Source of the DNA: Fimbriimonadaceae bacterium
GTDB taxonomy: Bacteria > Armatimonadota > Fimbriimonadia > Fimbriimonadales > Fimbriimonadaceae
Length of the DNA: 64,000 bases
Assembly: GCA_025934835.1 (NCBI GenBank)
Contig: JAICWL010000003.1
Coordinates: 1 to 64,000 of the forward strand
Direction: 5' to 3'
Below are positions 49,106-58,123 of the stretch, in pieces. Below the pieces are notes generated by a model, which saw only the letters and a program-made list of their open reading frames with translations, searched no databases and had not been told where the DNA came from. How positions within the stretch are numbered: the first letter of the stretch is position 1; every line of letters starts with the position of its first letter. Both the position numbers and the translations under genes were made by a program.

Positions 49106-50362
49106 CTACTCGGCAGTCCGCTCGAGTAGGGCGTCGTACAGACCGGCAGCGCGCCGGCTGCCCCTTGCGAGGAACTCGGCCGCCGCCGAGCGAGCTTGTT
49201 TGCTCTGGTTGGTATCTTCGACGAGCAATCCCCACGCCTTTGCGAGCGACTTCGAGCCGGGACATACCTCTGCGTATCCAAGCGCGATCAACGGCTCCAT
49301 CAGCGCACGCTGTTGCGCGAAGTAGGGTCCGAGCGTGATCGGCGTCCGATACGCCAAAGCCTCGACCGGCGTGTGACCACCCACGTGGGGCTCGTACGTG
49401 CCGCCGATGAACGCCACATCGGCCTCGGCATACGCGCGTTTCAGCTCGCCATAGGTATCCAAGAGCAGAACCCCGCCCGCTTGTGGTGCTTCCCCGAGGG
49501 ACCTGCGCGCGAATGCGATGTTGTGTCGGATCAGCACCGAGTCGCTGCCGCCTGGCCGGTTCAGACGCCGAGGAGCCATGATAAAGAGGGCCTTCGGATG
49601 CCCCGCGAGGAACAGTTCGAAAGCCGGGAGCACGATCTCCTCGTCCGCCTCATAGGTGCTCCCCGCGAGCACGACCGGGCCGATGCCGGCCGGAACGATC
49701 CGTCCATCGCCGCTCGGCTCCGGCTGTTGAAGCAGGCCGACGGGACCTGTCACCAGCACCCGGTGTTCCGGCACCCCAAGTGAGAGCAGGCGGTCGGCAT
49801 GAACTTGCTCCTGCGCGGCATAAAGGTCTACAGGGAGGAACTTCCAAGCGGCGCCACGCACGCGATCCGCTTCAGCTTCGGTGATCGGAACGTTGAAGAC
49901 GAGCGTCGGAATGCCGAAGGCGTGGGCCAGCGCCTTCATGTGGTGGTTGTCCCAAAATTCGACGGCCCAGATCATCCTCGGGCGCCACCGCCGAAGGCAC
50001 ACCCACGCTGAAAGCGGATTGTTGAACGGCGCTAGCCCCATCCACCGCCCCTCCCTCGCAAGTGCGAACGCCTCTTTGGATTGAACGAGCACCGAGCATT
50101 GAACCCCGCGAAGACGCTCGAGCTCGTCGGCCACTTGCAAAGAGACGCGCGCCTCACCCAAGCCGCCGGCGATGAGCAGAACATCGCAGCCGGAGCCGCG
50201 CGGTTTCGAACCACCGAAAAGCCTCTCGCGGACTGTGCCCGAATAGCCGCGCCGCCGTGCACGGAGCAGACTGCGTACGCCCAGGAACGGGCTAAGCACG
50301 AGATGCCCGAGCAGGTAGAGGGCGTAGGGTAAACCGTAAGCCGACCCTTTCGAGGACCTCAT
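49106..50362 (-). CDS. waaA: 3-deoxy-D-manno-octulosonate transferase-like glycosyltransferase
   Basis: GGLGEARVSLQVADEL, RPRMIWAVEFWDNHH, VVLAGSTYEADEEIVLPAF, VAFIGGTYEPHVGGHTPVEALAYRTPITLGPYF. Confidence 0.8.
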   Translation of the reverse strand: MRSSKGSAYGLPYALYLLGHLVLSPFLGVRSLLRARRRGYSGTVRERLFGGSKPRGSGCDVLLIAGGLGEARVSLQVADELERLRGVQCSVLVQSKEAFALAREGRWMGLAPFNNPLSAWVCLRRWRPRMIWAVEFWDNHHMKALAHAFGIPTLVFNVPITEAEADRVRGAAWKFLPVDLYAAQEQVHADRLLSLGVPEHRVLVTGPVGLLQQPEPSGDGRIVPAGIGPVVLAGSTYEADEEIVLPAFELFLAGHPKALFIMAPRRLNRPGGSDSVLIRHNIAFARRSLGEAPQAGGVLLLDTYGELKRAYAEADVAFIGGTYEPHVGGHTPVEALAYRTPITLGPYFAQQRALMEPLIALGYAEVCPGSKSLAKAWGLLVEDTNQSKQARSAAAEFLARGSRRAAGLYDALLERTAE

Positions 50363-50428: not shown

Positions 50429-51487
50429 GTGGCGAAAGGCGAGGCACGCATATTCGTCAATCTGTTCACCAACATCGGCGACGTGGTCTGCTTCACCCCT
50501 TTGCTCCGCTGGCTTCGCCAAGCCCGCCCTGACGCCGAGATCGTAGCCTGCACGAGCAGCGTCGGAAAGCAGATCCTCGCCACCAACCCGAACATCGACG
50601 AGGTGGTTCTACCCCCGAAAGGCTCACTCGGCAAGATTGGGCAGGTGCTCTGGCTGAAGCGAAGAGGCTTCGACACGGCCATTTTAGCTCGGACACACAA
50701 CCCGACCGTGCTCAATGCGCGTCTGGCCGGTATTCCGCGCCGAATCGGCTTCGCGGACGCCAAGCGTCCTACGCTTCTTACCGATGTGCTCGTGCCCGTT
50801 GCCGGCAGGAGGCGAATCGATGGCCTCTCGGTCGCGATCGCGCAGCAGCTAGAAATCGTACCGGACGATCTCGGAACCGAGTTGCCCATCGACGACGGGG
50901 CTCGAGCAAGGGCGAACCAAGTGCTCGACGGCGTGCGCAACAACGAACGACTGGTGGCATTTCATTGCGGAGCGACGATGCCATCGAAAGTGTGGCCGAT
51001 CGAGCGGATGCGCCAAGTGTGGGAAACTTTGGCCGATCACGGCGTCCGCTGTGTGGTGATTGGCGGCGCCGAAGACCGCCAAACCGCACAGGATCAGATT
51101 CGGCTCAGTTCGAAACCTCCGATTTTGCTCGCGGGACGCCTCGGATTGTTGGAAACCGCAGCCGTGCTCGAGCGAAGCGCGCTGCTGGTTTCGAACGACT
51201 CCGGACCTATGCACATGGCAGCGGCGGTCGGCACGAGGGTCGTGTCGGCTTTTGGTCCCACGAGAATCGAAGACTATGGGCCGTCAGGCAGCGGGCACTG
51301 CCTCCTCCAAGCCGCATGCCAATGCCCGGAGCCGAAGACGTCCAGTTGTTCGGGGTGCATTCGCGCCATTGAAGCAGAGCAGGTTATCTCCGGGGCGATC
51401 GAACTGCTTAAGACGGATGCGTCGGAGTGGCCGCCGCAAAGCCTTCGAGGACGGACCGATACTCCTCCAATGTCGAGCAGTGCGTGA
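50429..51487 (+). CDS. Glycosyltransferase family 9 (heptosyltransferase-like)
   Basis: NLFTNIGDVVCFTPLLRWLRQARPDAEI, FHCGATMPSKVWPIERM, LLVSNDSGPMHMAAAVGTRVVSAFGPT. Confidence 0.92.
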   Translation: MAKGEARIFVNLFTNIGDVVCFTPLLRWLRQARPDAEIVACTSSVGKQILATNPNIDEVVLPPKGSLGKIGQVLWLKRRGFDTAILARTHNPTVLNARLAGIPRRIGFADAKRPTLLTDVLVPVAGRRRIDGLSVAIAQQLEIVPDDLGTELPIDDGARARANQVLDGVRNNERLVAFHCGATMPSKVWPIERMRQVWETLADHGVRCVVIGGAEDRQTAQDQIRLSSKPPILLAGRLGLLETAAVLERSALLVSNDSGPMHMAAAVGTRVVSAFGPTRIEDYGPSGSGHCLLQAACQCPEPKTSSCSGCIRAIEAEQVISGAIELLKTDASEWPPQSLRGRTDTPPMSSSA

Positions 51488-52406
51488 GGCGCTCTCTAGC
51501 CTGGGCAGCCCCTTGCTCGCCCTTGATGTAAAGCGGGATCTGGCCGCGAAGCGCCCGGCAGGCCCGAAGCTCCCCGTCCTCGCTTTCCGACTCCAACTCG
51601 ATCATTCGCTCGATATGCTCGAGCGCCGTACGCACCCGGTCCCCCAGCGTGGGCAGGTTCGGCTGGGGCTCGCCTACGAGCGCGGCTTTGATCCTGGCGA
51701 GCGCCCAGGGATTCGAGATCGCCGCTCGCCCGACCATCACTCCGTCGCAGCCAGTCTCGGACAGCATACGCAGCGCGTCCTCAGGCGTCTTGACGTCACC
51801 GTTACCTATCAGTGGCACAGTCACAGCGGCGCGCAGATCCCGGATCAGCTTCCAGTCAGCCTGACCGTCGAACCCTTGCCGCGCGAACCGCGCATGCAGC
51901 GTGATCATCTTGGCGCCAGCGCCTTCAAATCGCTTGGCTAGCTCGGGAGCCGCGAACATGGAGTAGTCCCATCCGGCTCGCACTTTGACAGTCACCGGGA
52001 TTCGGACGGTCGTTGCGAGCTTGGCGACGATCCGCTCGGCAAGATCGGGGTCCTTCAAGAGCGCCGCGCCGGAGCCCGTCTTGCAAACCTTCGGCACCCA
52101 ACAGCCCATGTTCACGTCGAGGACGTCCGCCCCCATATCCTGCGCGATCAGTGCGGTCTCGGCCATGATGTCCGGGTCGCCGCCGAATATCTGGATCGCC
52201 AGCGGCCGTTCGTCCGGATGGACCCGCATCTTGCGCAGCGTCTTGGATGCCCCGTAGTGGATCGCCATAGCGCTGACGAACTCCGTGAACATCAGCCCGG
52301 GGCCGCCGATTCGCTTCGCAATCAGCCTGAATGCCAGATTGCTCACGTCCTCCATAGGGGCGAGCACAAGGGGGTTCTCGATGGTCAGGTCGCCGATTCG
52401 AAACAA
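51408..52406 (-). CDS. dusB: tRNA-dihydrouridine synthase
   Basis: LVLAPMEDVSNLAFR, VDVNMGCWVPKVCKTGSGAALLKDPDL, PLIGNGDVKTPEDAL; TTG start. Confidence 0.93.
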   Translation of the reverse strand: MFRIGDLTIENPLVLAPMEDVSNLAFRLIAKRIGGPGLMFTEFVSAMAIHYGASKTLRKMRVHPDERPLAIQIFGGDPDIMAETALIAQDMGADVLDVNMGCWVPKVCKTGSGAALLKDPDLAERIVAKLATTVRIPVTVKVRAGWDYSMFAAPELAKRFEGAGAKMITLHARFARQGFDGQADWKLIRDLRAAVTVPLIGNGDVKTPEDALRMLSETGCDGVMVGRAAISNPWALARIKAALVGEPQPNLPTLGDRVRTALEHIERMIELESESEDGELRACRALRGQIPLYIKGEQGAAQARERLTHCSTLEEYRSVLEGFAAATPTHPS

Positions 52407-52416
52407 CGCTTTCTTC

Positions 52417-53283
52417 CTACTCCGCAGTCGGCGGCTCGAAGCTGTATTGCCCTGAGTAAACCTCGTGGGCCTCGCCGATCACAGTTATCGACTCATCCCA
52501 TCGGCCCATCTTGACAATGAGCCGGCCGCCGCTACTTGAAACTGCTACGGGTCCGCTGCCGCCAGCCCTCCGAAGGTAATCCGTGGCTGCTGCGGAAGCG
52601 CCCGTCCCGCAGCCCAGAGTCTCGCCCACTCCGCGCTCCCAAATCCGAATGCTCAGCTCACCCGGAGCGAGCACCCGGGAAAAGATCACGCTCGTTCTCT
52701 GCGGAAACACCGAGGCGTTTTCGATGGCCGGCCCGAGCCGAGCGAAATCTTCGTCGCTCGGCAGGATTGCCACCGGCACTATCGTGTGGGTGCTGCCGGT
52801 CGTTAAGCTGCTGCAGCGAATGTGTATTCCGCCGAGAGCCGCGATCTCCCGGTCGAAGATTTCGTCCGCGCCAGGAGCAAGGGGAACGTCTGGCGGAGAA
52901 TAGCTTGCCGGATCGAGCGCCATGCCGACGAGGCCCGACTCGATCCAGCATCGCACAATTTGGCCTCGGTGCCGGATGGTGAACGAGTCAGACACCCAAC
53001 CGAGCCGATGCGCGTGGACGGCGACGCATCTCAGGCCATTGCCGCAAAAATCCTCCGTGCCGTCTGGGTTGAACATCCTCGCTCGCAACCCCGTGCTATC
53101 TCGGCCCACCGTGAGGATTCCGTCTCCGCCGATGCCGAACCTGCGGTCTGTGGCTGCCACCGCCAGCCTGGGCAGAGTCTTTTCCAGCTTCGCCCCAAAG
53201 CCCTCCGAGAGATCTTCCTCGTGGAAAAGCGGAAAATCGTTTCCGACGGACTGAAGCTTCCAGAAATCCAGCGGGACGCTCAA
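52417..53283 (-). CDS. dapF: Diaminopimelate epimerase
   Basis: LDFWKLQSVGNDFPLF, MFNPDGTEDFCGNGLRCVA, GVGETLGCGTGASAAA; TTG start with TTGA overlap to the upstream gene. Confidence 0.95.
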   Translation of the reverse strand: MSVPLDFWKLQSVGNDFPLFHEEDLSEGFGAKLEKTLPRLAVAATDRRFGIGGDGILTVGRDSTGLRARMFNPDGTEDFCGNGLRCVAVHAHRLGWVSDSFTIRHRGQIVRCWIESGLVGMALDPASYSPPDVPLAPGADEIFDREIAALGGIHIRCSSLTTGSTHTIVPVAILPSDEDFARLGPAIENASVFPQRTSVIFSRVLAPGELSIRIWERGVGETLGCGTGASAAATDYLRRAGGSGPVAVSSSGGRLIVKMGRWDESITVIGEAHEVYSGQYSFEPPTAE

Positions 53284-55235
53284 ACGAGCGGCTCCAAGTA
53301 GTACTCCGCCGATCGCGCGGTCTCTCGGAACCACAGGCCGTCCGGACAAACCAGACGGAACCACCACGCGCTGGGCCGATGATTGGCTTTCTCGAGTCCT
53401 TGGGACGCGATGACCGCCTCCCGAATCAATCGCAGGCGTTTGAGCTCCGCTTCGACTTCGATGCTCCGCCGTCGCTCGTGGGCACGCTGCACCTGGTCCC
53501 GAGCGACGATGTCGACCTGCTCCCGCCGCATGGCGTGAAGCTGGTTCTGGATCTGAGTCGATTCATGGACGATCCGTTCGACCTCGCCCGTGAGCCGCTT
53601 GCGCTCCTCGACGGCGTCGGGCGTCGGCTCCTGCCCGAAAATTCGCTCCCGGAATTGCCGACCCTTGGCCAGTTCCGCTTCGATCCGTTCGCGGCGAAGC
53701 TCTCGTGAGCGGTCGAGCGCCTTCCGCCTGCGCTGTTTGACTTCCTCGAGCTCTCTGCGCACCTGCTCCATCTCCATGTGGAGAGCCTGATACTCTTCGG
53801 CCAGACTGCGCCACGATCCGCCCAGCATCGAATCGAGAAACCGGATCAGATCCAATGGACGCCTAAGCCCGGCAAGCTTTTCCAAAAGCGCCCGCTCCTC
53901 CGCGTCCACGGCTTTCCAGCGGGCCGCGAAGCTCGGAGCGCAAAGCTCTTCCCCACCAAACGGCCGTCGCAATGGCTCGGGCAGCCGAAGCCAGCTGCAG
54001 CAAACGCTCAGCGAATCCCATGCGGCATAGCGCACGCGCAGGATCGGGTTCAGTTTCGGCGCCCATCCTTGGGCTCCAAGTCGCTTGTGAAGCTCGCGCG
54101 AGTGCTTTACATAGTTGCTCGCGCCCTCGTGGAATACGAATACAAACTCCCGGGCGAGCATGCCGATGAGCGTGACCGCCTTGCCCACGAGCGTGCAGTT
54201 CGGCCCGAATTTGCGCTCGACGAGCTCTGCAAGCTCCCGGATGCCGCTCAGCGGCCGCTTGTACGACAGGAACTGTGGTTCCGGGGTCATGACCACGGCG
54301 CCGCGATTGCCGAGCCGAACCGTGCCGCGCCCCTTTCCTGGAATTACGAGGTCGAACGGAATCGCGCCAACGCCGAACCGCTCGAGCTCATACAGCCCCG
54401 ATGAGCCTTGGATCGCCTCGTCGTAGGCTCTACACGCCGCTGCTCGGGTGGCAGGGTCGACAAACAGGTTGGCAAGCTCGAATCGGGGTGCGTCGCACGT
54501 CTGCGAGTTGAATCGTAGGAGCTCGGTCGTCGACGTGGTGGTCAGTTCGATGCTCGCATTCGCGCAGAACTCGTACATGCCCGAAAGCAGCCGCATGTAA
54601 AATTCGGAGAGAGTGATCGACGGGTCCTCGGCCGCATCGCATACCATCGTTCGAAGCTCGTCGGCCAGTGCCTCGGCAGCAAGCCGGCCCTCGCCTCGTA
54701 GGCAGTCGATAGCCTCCCCGAGTGCCCAATCCAGACAGGACATCAGCTCGGGATATAGTTGGCGCAGTGGCGTTTCGGCGGTGATCGGAGGGTGGTCATC
54801 TAACGACACGACTCCTCTCCAGCCCCAAGCCTCGGTGGCCGAATCCAGCACGCCCGGCCTCGCCCTCTCGAGCTTGTCCAGTGCCGAGCCGTGCCGAGCA
54901 AGCATCTCCCGCGTGATGACGGTCTCGGACCCGAACAGCGCGGAGAACTCCACTGCGGCGCTCCACAGCCCGCGCGTCGTCGTGTCGTTGTGCGGAAACG
55001 CCTTGTATCGGCCCGGATTGCGCGGCCCGCTGGGCAGCTTCGCGAAGTAGTCCGTGTCGTGGACCCCCGCGACGAGCTTGCGCGAATATCCGGCTTTCCG
55101 GCTCTCCAGGTAGAGCCCGCCCTTCATCGGCTCGTCCCAAAAAATGGTCTGTCCGAGCGCCAGGAACGGTGAGTCACCCGCGAGCCTATCTAGCTCTGCG
55201 AGCACGCTCTCCAAGCCGGAACAGTTGGCCTCCAT
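53280..55235 (-). CDS. Large protein of unknown function with C-terminal coiled-coil
   Basis: Intact ~651-aa ORF in thioesterase-X-dapF-dusB operon; ALGQTIFWDEPMKGGL, GVHDTDYFAKLPSG, KAFPHNDTTTRGLWSAA; charged heptads near C-term. Confidence 0.8.
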   Translation of the reverse strand: MEANCSGLESVLAELDRLAGDSPFLALGQTIFWDEPMKGGLYLESRKAGYSRKLVAGVHDTDYFAKLPSGPRNPGRYKAFPHNDTTTRGLWSAAVEFSALFGSETVITREMLARHGSALDKLERARPGVLDSATEAWGWRGVVSLDDHPPITAETPLRQLYPELMSCLDWALGEAIDCLRGEGRLAAEALADELRTMVCDAAEDPSITLSEFYMRLLSGMYEFCANASIELTTTSTTELLRFNSQTCDAPRFELANLFVDPATRAAACRAYDEAIQGSSGLYELERFGVGAIPFDLVIPGKGRGTVRLGNRGAVVMTPEPQFLSYKRPLSGIRELAELVERKFGPNCTLVGKAVTLIGMLAREFVFVFHEGASNYVKHSRELHKRLGAQGWAPKLNPILRVRYAAWDSLSVCCSWLRLPEPLRRPFGGEELCAPSFAARWKAVDAEERALLEKLAGLRRPLDLIRFLDSMLGGSWRSLAEEYQALHMEMEQVRRELEEVKQRRRKALDRSRELRRERIEAELAKGRQFRERIFGQEPTPDAVEERKRLTGEVERIVHESTQIQNQLHAMRREQVDIVARDQVQRAHERRRSIEVEAELKRLRLIREAVIASQGLEKANHRPSAWWFRLVCPDGLWFRETARSAEYYLEPLV

Positions 55236-55295
55236 ATGCAGGTTACTCGTATACTTTACGCGCCAAGCCGAAGAACGTCGGCTTGCGAAGCGCAC

Positions 55296-55790: not shown

Positions 55791-56312
55791 ATGCCGAAGA
55801 TGCAATCTCAGAACCCTGGCGAATCGGAGCCGGCGGCGAGACCGGAGTCTGTGCTTATCCGGTTCCTGGCCTCACTTTGCCTCACTTACCTCGTCGCGTT
55901 CGCGGCGATCGAGCTCAGTCTTCCAGGTCTTCGAGGGTGGTACTCGCTCGCCGAAGGTCCGTCCTGGCAGCCTCCCGCGCAATGGGTCACGCCGCTCCTC
56001 CTGCTCGTTTTCGGATGCGCCGGAGTCGCCGGTTGGCTGGCGATTCGCCGAAATAGGGGGACGGCGACGCTCTGCCTATGGGCTGCCAACGTCGTCTTGC
56101 TCGGGGCTTGGTGCGTGCTGTTTTTCGCACGGCAGGCGTTCGTGCCGGCGCTGGCGGAGTCTGCGGTTCTATTCGTCTCGGCTGCGGCCGCCCTGGTTTG
56201 GTATTTCCTTGTCAGCAAGCCGGCGGGGCTGTTGCAGTGCCTGGTTCTCTTGTGGGACCTATGGGCTGCTGCCACTTCCCTTGCGGCCTGGCGGGCATCT
56301 CAGGGTCGCTAG
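55791..56312 (+). CDS. TspO/MBR family protein
   Basis: [37 protein letters not shown]; ~5 TM helices. Confidence 0.75.
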
Positions 56313-58123
56313 CCTGCGACACCGGTCACGACGTCGTCTTCTTGCTCGAAAGTTCCGTAGTAGTACGGGGTTCGAGACTCGAACTCCCCCGCGCACGTGT
56401 CGACCATTTTGAAAACGGGCATCACTTTTTGTCGCTCGACTTCGGCCAGCACGCGCCGCTGATACGCGAAGTATTGGGCGATCCGCTGCTCCGCTCCCTC
56501 CGCGGACAAAGGCTCTCGGCCAAGACCGGAAAGATCCATCCCGAGGATGGCCATGTAAGCTGCAGGGTCTTTGGCGAAGCGCTCCTCGCCGGCTTCCAGA
56601 AGGGGCGCGAACGTGCGGCTCGAGCCCAGTATGCTGAGGATCGTGGGCGAGGGGAACCCGAGCAGAAACGCCGACTCGACGAGCTGTCCCAAATCCTCGT
56701 TCTGACCCAGAGTCTCTCGCGCTCGAGTCAGACGGCGCTCCATGTCGACCAAAACCTTGATCTTGCGCAGGAACCATCTGTCGACGCGGCTCAGCCTGTT
56801 CACTTCATCGACGCTCCAGCCACGGCGGAGCCCCTCCGCCAGGGCCCATAGGCGCTCGTCGGTCGGCTTTCGAATCGCTTCTCGGAGCGAGGCCTCGTCC
56901 AGCGATTGCATCCTAGGATGCCGCAGGTCGCGCTGCTTCACCTCCAAGCCTCGCAGCGCTTTCATCAGGGCGGCTTCGAAGGATCGGTCGATCGCCATCA
57001 CCTCGCCCGTCGCCTTCATCTGAGTGAAGAGCGATCGGTCGCCGGATGCGAACTTGTCGAACGGCCACCTCGGAATCTTCACGACGCAGTAGTCGAGGGC
57101 CGGTTCGAAGCACGCCTTGGTGGTGCCGGTCACCTGATTCTCGATCTCATCCAGGGTCTTGCCGGTCGCTATCTTCGCCGCTACCCGCGCGATCGGATAC
57201 CCCGTCGCCTTCGAGGCGAGCGCCGACGACCGCGACACCCTCGGATTGACTTCGATAATGTAGTAATCGAAGCTCTCGGGGTTCACGGCAAGCTGAACGT
57301 TGCATCCCCCCTCGATCCCAAGCGACTGGATGATCTTGAGCGACGCGGTGCGCAGCATGTGGTACTCCAGGTCGCTCAACGTCTGTGATGGCGCGACGAC
57401 AATCGAATCACCGGTGTGGACGCCCATCGGATCGAGGTTTTCCATATTGCAGACGGTGATGCAGTTGCCCGCGCCGTCCCGCATGACCTCGTACTCGATC
57501 TCCTTCCAACCGAGCAGCGACCGCTCGACCATGATCTGGCTGCGCATCGAGAGCTTCAGCCCCTTTTGGCCAACTTCCCAAAGCTCCTCTCTCGAATTGG
57601 CGATGCCTCCGCCCGTGCCGCCGAGCGTATAAGCCGGCCGGATGATGCAGGGGTACGGCACGACGTCCAGCGCCGCTTCAAGCTCCTCGTTCGAAGTGAT
57701 GATCCAGCTCTCGGGGACCGGCTCCTTGATCTCGCGCATAAGCGCACGAAAGCTCTCTCGATCCTCCGCCTTGCGGATCGCCTCCAAGGGGGTTCCAAGC
57801 AGCCGAACTTCGTAGCGCTCCAACAGGCCCGCGTCCGCAAGCTGGGTGGCAAGGTTCAATCCCGTCTGGCCGCCAAGCGTGGGAAGTAGCGCGTCCGGCC
57901 GCTCCCGGGCGATCACTCGCTCGCAAAAATCGACGGTCAGGGGCTCGATGTAAAGCGCGTCCGCAACCCCGGGGTCGGTCATGATCGTGGCCGGGTTACT
58001 GTTGATGAGGACGACTTCGTGGCCCTCCTCTTTGAGGGACTTGCAGGCTTGCGTGCCCGCGTAATCGAACTCGGCAGCCTGACCAATAACGATCGGCCCG
58101 GAGCCGATTACGAGCACCTTCAT
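56309..58123 (-). CDS. carB: Carbamoyl-phosphate synthase large subunit, N-terminal half only
   Basis: [48 protein letters not shown] ... [34 protein letters not shown]; stops before the second ATP-grasp half. Confidence 0.93.

Follow-up and report, generated by a model that had tools for sequence, protein, structure and literature searches.

Relatives of class I aminoacyl-tRNA synthetases (aaRSs) have been found to serve outside translation, for which MshC provides a precedent, and cyclodipeptide synthases have also been placed among the class-I-aaRS-like (HUP) proteins (PMC2922099). A DapF-derived racemase paired with an activating synthetase is known from PddA/PddB (PMC8225329). PddB is a DapF-derived diaminobutyrate racemase in which the distal-carboxylate residues have been replaced and the substrate has changed; in the DapF of H. 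influenzae, the distal carboxylate of diaminopimelate (DAP) is bound by N64, N157, N190, and R209 (PMC8225329).

Here, we analyzed a window of 64,000 nucleotides, positions 1 to 64,000 of contig JAICWL010000003.1 from a Fimbriimonadaceae bacterium (assembly GCA_025934835.1). Translation, relatives, and alignments define P0001, a protein of 651 aa whose Armatimonadota family has no name; it is encoded at 53280..55235 on the minus strand next to a paralog of dapF. We describe its gene, distribution, and predicted structure, and how both proteins compare with the systems above.

Results

Gene, conservation, and distribution

The P0001 frame on the minus strand comprises 652 codons, namely 651 amino acids and a TGA stop. 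Upstream of the ATG at 55235, the frame stays open to a GTG at 55295. The start methionine is common to many relatives (MDxxC, MExxC), and ATG 55235 is therefore the likely start of P0001. Open-frame relatives with 36-64% identity were found at 44 loci, and an alignment of 45 sequences from the phylum (28-61% identity to P0001) contains 31 invariant columns. These relatives and invariant columns confirmed, at the level of sequence comparison, that P0001 is a real and old protein rather than a chance open reading frame. The initial annotation, made from the sequence alone, had described a conserved-looking protein of about 651 aa at 53280-55235, and the relatives bear this out; all motifs it quoted for this protein are indeed present.

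All 41 near relatives carry P0001. At the class level, it was found in 86 of 88 good genomes and, across the phylum Armatimonadota, in 149 of 194, a number that includes one match (G174) which is weak and which the profile search did not confirm. The lowest identity to P0001 across the phylum is 28%, and one copy per genome is the rule. Two reduced, nearly complete genomes of 1.5 Mb from the same family (G077 and G078) lack P0001 even by profile search, so the gene can be lost. P0001 is widespread and probably ancestral in Armatimonadota. A scan of GTDB contigs, which reached close relatives only and covered other phyla weakly, gave 44 P0001 loci with titles that are nearly all Armatimonadetes, Fimbriimonadales, or Chthonomonas. 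A contig titled 'Methanoregulaceae archaeon isolate SJ84' bears a P0001 relative; because this relative is 55% identical, the contig is probably mislabelled and derived from a Fimbriimonadales bacterium. P0001 was found in none of the plasmids and viral contigs searched, and a defence or phage origin was rejected for want of support from PADLOC, PHROG, plasmids, or viral contigs.

Searches of P0001 against Pfam, NCBIfam, PADLOC, and PHROG gave sub-threshold matches only, nearly all of them within the coiled coil. Sequence searches of the PDB with P0001 and two profiles produced nothing convincing: we treated as chance both a match to alpha-adaptin (E 0.007), which is an unrelated short segment, and one to a chemotaxis receptor (E 0.008), which falls in the coiled coil. 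No paper found in a search of the open-access literature describes P0001. The initial view that the protein could not be assigned to any family still holds after HMM, PDB-sequence, and Foldseek searches, none of which returned a confident match to a characterized family. The gene thus marks something real that no known family explains.

The neighbouring dapF gene is a divergent paralog

P0001 belongs to a row of four minus-strand genes separated by short gaps or none, which encode a thioesterase, P0001, DapF2, and DusB. The gene before P0001 (55296..55805, minus) encodes an acyl-CoA thioesterase of the YbgC/FadM type, and its stop codon lies about 60 nt upstream of the P0001 start. The TGA of P0001 overlaps the TTG start of dapF2 as TTGA. 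The dapF2 gene (52417..53283, minus; P0002 extended to the TTG start) encodes a DapF-family epimerase paralog in which both catalytic cysteines are kept and Asn157 and Asn190 are replaced. After a gap of 10 nt follows dusB (51408..52406, minus), the gene for a tRNA dihydrouridine synthase.

The genome has two dapF genes, the housekeeping copy being located on another contig. Scored with TIGR00652 (cut-off 114.65), DapF2 of the window reached 130.6 bits and the housekeeping DapF 277.4. In a tree of 66 sequences, a single branch divides DapF2 from the ordinary type, DapF1 (support 100/93; recovered in 100% of the 200 bootstrap trees), which identifies DapF2 as an ancient paralogous clade by sequence phylogeny. 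Without exception, the two types share N11, E208, R209, and the pair of catalytic cysteines (36/36 DapF2); N64 is almost as constant (35/36 DapF2). However, every one of the 36 DapF2 sequences has Ser or Thr at position 157, where 29 of 30 DapF1 have Asn, and 34 of the 36 have Ser or Thr at position 190, so that the full set of residues for the distal carboxylate of DAP (N64, N157, N190, R209) is not retained. Because N157 and N190 are replaced, as such residues are in PddB, DapF2 probably acts on a substrate other than DAP. Since R209 stays, this substrate may perhaps still bear an acidic distal group.

The initial annotation had placed P0001 in a dapF/dusB operon. The TTGA overlap and the 10-nt gap agree with this position, whereas the notion of a housekeeping dapF as the partner of P0001 finds no support, the neighbour being the divergent paralog and the true dapF lying elsewhere. 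That this neighbour is a separate paralog linked to P0001 had escaped the initial annotation.

Other genes of the window were also noted. At 56309-58123 (minus), only the N-terminal half of the large subunit of carbamoyl-phosphate synthase is encoded (604 aa, corresponding to 9-546 of 1058 in NF003671), which is either a split carB or a broken gene. A TspO/MBR-family gene at 55791-56312 (plus) is convergent with this carB half and touches its end. The genes at 50429-51487 (plus) and 49106-50362 (minus) resemble a lipopolysaccharide heptosyltransferase and a Kdo transferase, with scores below the curated cut-offs.

P0001 and DapF2 occur together

A comparison of the phyletic profiles of P0001 and dapF, suggested as a check in the initial annotation, revealed an association. 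Among 291 genomes, two or more DapF matches were present in 170 of the 195 genomes with P0001 and in 12 of the 96 without it, in a count that ignores kinship and tallies G174 and G266 as lacking P0001. Several of the 12 exceptions, with a second DapF and no P0001, are incomplete genomes. Genomes picked for lacking P0001 each have a single DapF, which is of type 1 by score, and the reduced genomes G077 and G078 lack P0001 and DapF2 alike. The association extends to gene order: among 37 loci outside the class, 16, spread over 12 families, have DapF2 as the gene directly behind P0001, and together with two further families (f1 and f5) the adjacency is found in about 14. In some families and classes, the two genes lie far apart and both are still present. 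The pair is not obligate, because one family (f43) has P0001 without DapF2.

Beside DapF2, a gene resembling M15 D-Ala-D-Ala dipeptidases was observed in seven loci (L084, L085, L091, L097, L154, L155, and L169), with P0001 adjoining or not, a hint of D-amino-acid peptide chemistry. In L091, a single open frame fuses this M15 dipeptidase-like gene with a methyltransferase-like part.

Predicted structure and conserved residues

The AlphaFold2 model of P0001, computed with 37 sequences, has a pLDDT of 93.1 and a pTM of 0.85. Residues 1-473 form a Rossmann-type core and residues 474-619 a coiled-coil hairpin; the short tail behind them carries an invariant RPxxWW motif. The core begins with a strand at 24-28, a helix at 35-47 that opens with WDEPMK, and a strand at 54-58 that is followed by HDTDYF. 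Judged from the invariant residues and the model, the segment of residues 24-66 (55038..55166, minus), which runs from strand 1 (LALGQT) through helix A, opening with WDEPMK, and strand 2 to HDTDYFAK, is a candidate ATP/amino-acid site. A large insertion follows the strand at 54-58 and includes the PFDLVIPGxGRGT strand sheet of residues 291-324 (54264..54365, minus), where P293, F294, G302, R303, and G304 are invariant. Residues 332-376 (54108..54242, minus) then form a helix, a strand at 348-351 leading into KA (LVGKA), a helix at 353-361, and a strand at 365-369 (FVFVF) leading into HEGASxY, with G351, K352, A353, S373, and Y375 conserved; in the model, this region would be the second half of the Rossmann-type sheet. 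The hairpin (53379..53816, minus) varies in sequence and length. Its residues are helical in the model and 36% of them are charged, in line with the long charged coiled coil first described. Residues 620-651 and the stop codon (53280..53378, minus) make up the tail, RPSAWWFxxxxPxGxWF, with R620, P621, W624, W625, and W635 invariant.

The mean frequency of the commonest residue is 0.66 in residues 24-66, 0.61 in 620-651, 0.50-0.59 in the rest of the core, and 0.38 in the coiled coil. Throughout the phylum, Q29, T30, W33, D34, K38, D62, Y63, and F64 vary hardly or not at all, as do the further polar residues E96, E104, R303, K352, S373, and R400. The invariant residues cluster directly after predicted strands, and this arrangement would resemble the active sites of Rossmann-type enzymes. 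In enzymes of the HUP fold, ATP and the amino acid are bound just past the first two strands. The initial suggestion that the FWDEP and HDTDYF motifs belong to an active site is accordingly plausible, with near-invariance across the phylum and a modelled position directly after the first two core strands in its favour.

The core resembles class I lysyl-tRNA synthetase in predicted fold

A Foldseek search with the whole P0001 model against the PDB and viral models returned coiled-coil noise only, for which reason we folded the core alone (residues 1-472; pLDDT 86.9). With this model, the class I lysyl-tRNA synthetase (LysRS) 1IRX was the sole PDB entry under an E-value of 1e-3 (5.1e-4; second chain 1.5e-3). 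The match has a probability of 1.00 and spans 420-455 aligned columns of the 472-residue query, at a weak TM-score of about 0.35 and 10-11% identity. The next matches, which are not significant (E > 0.2), were largely NAD synthetase, TyrRS, GMP synthetase, NcsA, and cyclodipeptide synthase, of which we take the first four to belong to the HUP superclass. The order of strands and helices in the model and the Foldseek matches agree with a HUP-type Rossmann core, whose nucleotide site would follow strand 1, and we consider it fairly probable that the modelled core is of this type. This resemblance to a class I aaRS had escaped the initial annotation.

Comparison of sequence profiles with hhalign aligned P0001 with class I LysRS at E-values of 0.07-0.6 and in the wrong register, and no match of P0001 to the PF01921 or TIGR00467 profiles appeared at E-values up to 10. 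Profile-profile comparison with a LysRS1-like group gave nothing, and when hhalign was run in windows, the strand motifs found no register at the expected place in either LysRS1 or BshC. Furthermore, the alignments of the near relatives and of the phylum keep no HIGH-, KMSKS-type, or PP-loop motif. Because the profile-profile comparisons gave nothing, P0001 is filed, by its sequence, under neither the LysRS1 nor the BshC family. Of the checks first suggested, HMM-HMM comparison yielded no homology to LysRS1 or BshC, and structure prediction yielded a confident model with a core nearest to class I LysRS.

P0001 was also considered as the LysRS of the cell, which could be ruled out by the separate LysRS present in all 19 genomes tested: class II LysS exceeds the cut-off in 17, and a full class I LysK is encoded in the other two (G119 and G155). 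Six genomes (G113, G115, G042, G134, G133, and G122) additionally encode relatives of class I LysRS with a length of about 490-500 aa (L132-L137), which match PF01921 (E 7.7e-44 for L133) and have lost both HIGH (CAYLGDERNLREF) and KMSKS. From their sequences, they are possibly pseudo-synthetases with another role; three of these genomes (G042, G115, and G133) also contain an ordinary class II LysS.

Discussion

The gene association between P0001 and DapF2 suggests an undescribed amino-acid pathway. We tentatively propose that P0001 is the founder of a new family of HUP-class (class-I-aaRS-like) amino-acid-activating ligases that works with a neofunctionalized racemase. ATP and an amino acid are the most likely ligands of the Rossmann-type core at the N-terminus, which would convert the amino acid into an aminoacyl-adenylate by activating its carboxylate. 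QT-WDExxK could take the role of HIGH here, and GKA and EGASxY could complete the pocket. P0001 would then pass the aminoacyl group to an acceptor other than bulk tRNA, like MshC and probably BshC. The coiled-coil hairpin might serve in dimerization or in recruiting the acceptor. The tail, with its invariant RPxxWW, may pack back against the core. As a cysteine-pair amino-acid racemase with a distal-carboxylate site remodelled away from DAP, DapF2 would supply the substrate, and the amino acid adenylated by P0001 is perhaps the product of DapF2. Adenylation, ligation, the acceptor, the identity of the substrate, and a pathway shared with DapF2 are what we infer here. The proposal of an activating ligase draws on the confident model, the Foldseek match of the core to class I LysRS, the clustering of invariant residues after strands, and the separate LysRS of the genomes tested, together with the separate clade, residue changes, linkage, and co-occurrence of DapF2; it is weakened by the lack of LysRS profile homology, the TM-score of about 0.35, the absence of the canonical motifs, the occurrence of P0001 without DapF2 in f43, the distance between the two genes in some families, and co-occurrence counts that ignore kinship. 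Possible, yet more doubtful, is the fuller picture of an ancestral two-gene module of a pathway specific to the phylum, in which the racemase inverts an amino acid other than DAP and the HUP ligase activates and attaches it, giving an undescribed D-amino-acid component of the cell wall or metabolite.

A single match just under E 1e-3, with a TM-score of 0.35 and no support from sequence, could also come from an enzyme that catalyses a different kind of reaction; its core would only look HUP-like, and its likeness to LysRS would be that of Rossmannoid folds in general. Since the alignment takes in almost all of the core, with up to 455 columns, and the HUP superclass also accounts for many of the weaker matches, we regard this as rather unlikely. 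The loss of the canonical class I motifs, the coiled coil, and the many invariant Trp, Gly, and Pro residues might even suggest a non-catalytic scaffold or regulator of enzyme ancestry with structurally conserved residues. However, the polar residues that are invariant or nearly so across the phylum (Q29, T30, D34, K38, D62, E96, E104, R303, K352, S373, and R400) exceed the needs of a scaffold, which makes this explanation very improbable.

If the fold is taken at face value, the core is closest to a class I LysRS, and the weak matches include a cyclodipeptide synthase. P0001 might thus be an aaRS paralog acting on tRNA. It could charge one specific tRNA, with a D-amino acid or a non-standard one for instance, or could use a charged tRNA as cyclodipeptide synthases do, with the coiled coil holding the tRNA like the arm of SerRS. 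The SerRS arm model did pick up five P0001 members (best E 1.2e-4), a result that a coiled coil alone can produce. However, the net charge of the core is negative (about -5 to -9), and that of the coiled coil is only slightly positive (+2.5 to +3), which, by composition, does not suggest strong RNA binding. Moreover, no anticodon-binding domain was recognized in P0001 and the 19 genomes tested have an ordinary LysRS, so action on tRNA seems quite unlikely. P0001 might further be a BshC-like ligase for a low-molecular-weight thiol and replace BshC, in which a Rossmann core is likewise joined to a coiled coil, there a dimerization domain (PMC4360819). BshC (PF10079) was detected in 6 of the 291 genomes, all lacking P0001; these six genomes (loci L122-L128) nevertheless represent only two families, f20 and f30. 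Profile comparison was negative (hhalign E 0.2-0.3; no Pfam match), the BshC structure 4WBD is absent from the 50 best Foldseek matches, our genome has no BshA over the cut-off, and the bacillithiol pathway has no place for a racemase partner. We therefore attach very little probability to a BshC-like role. BshC membership had also been considered from a likeness of GQQ/EDHDF to GQT/HDTDYF, and was ruled out by the profile comparison and the Foldseek rank.

With 31 invariant residues and no family model, P0001 represents core biology that annotation pipelines skip. Even though dapF2 exceeds the curated DapF cut-off, it probably should not be annotated as a diaminopimelate epimerase. If amino-acid activation by P0001 alongside a neofunctionalized racemase proves true, P0001 would be one more of the few class-I-aaRS-like ligases that work outside translation, and both proteins would point to an unknown D-amino-acid product in Armatimonadota.

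Among the known systems, class I LysRS (LysRS1/LysK, PF01921, 1IRX) is similar in predicted fold over nearly the whole P0001 core. LysRS1 also has a strand-helix-strand start with an acidic DDYD after strand 2, where the P0001 model has HDTDY. Unlike class I LysRS, P0001 ends in a coiled-coil hairpin and the RPxxWW tail instead of an anticodon-binding domain, and it is devoid of detectable sequence homology, HIGH, and KMSKS. BshC (PF10079, 4WBD), a putative cysteine ligase of bacillithiol synthesis, combines a Rossmann core with a coiled-coil domain as does the P0001 model, but its motifs GQQPG...GPLY, EDDD, and GPGExxY differ from those of P0001. MshC, the MetRS paralogs that act as ligases, and cyclodipeptide synthases, all class-I-aaRS-like proteins of non-ribosomal peptide synthesis (PMC2922099), have an aaRS-type HUP domain that serves outside translation and was recognized partly through gene context, as is proposed here for P0001; by family search, P0001 belongs to none of them, and its own context is a DapF paralog. 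Both PddB and DapF2 are DapF paralogs with altered distal-carboxylate residues that occur alongside an amino-acid-activating enzyme, an activity that for P0001 is proposed. However, PddA is NRPS-like and not a HUP protein, and N64 and R209, lost by PddB, are kept by DapF2. While PddB is a scattered gene of secondary metabolism, DapF2 is found phylum-wide.
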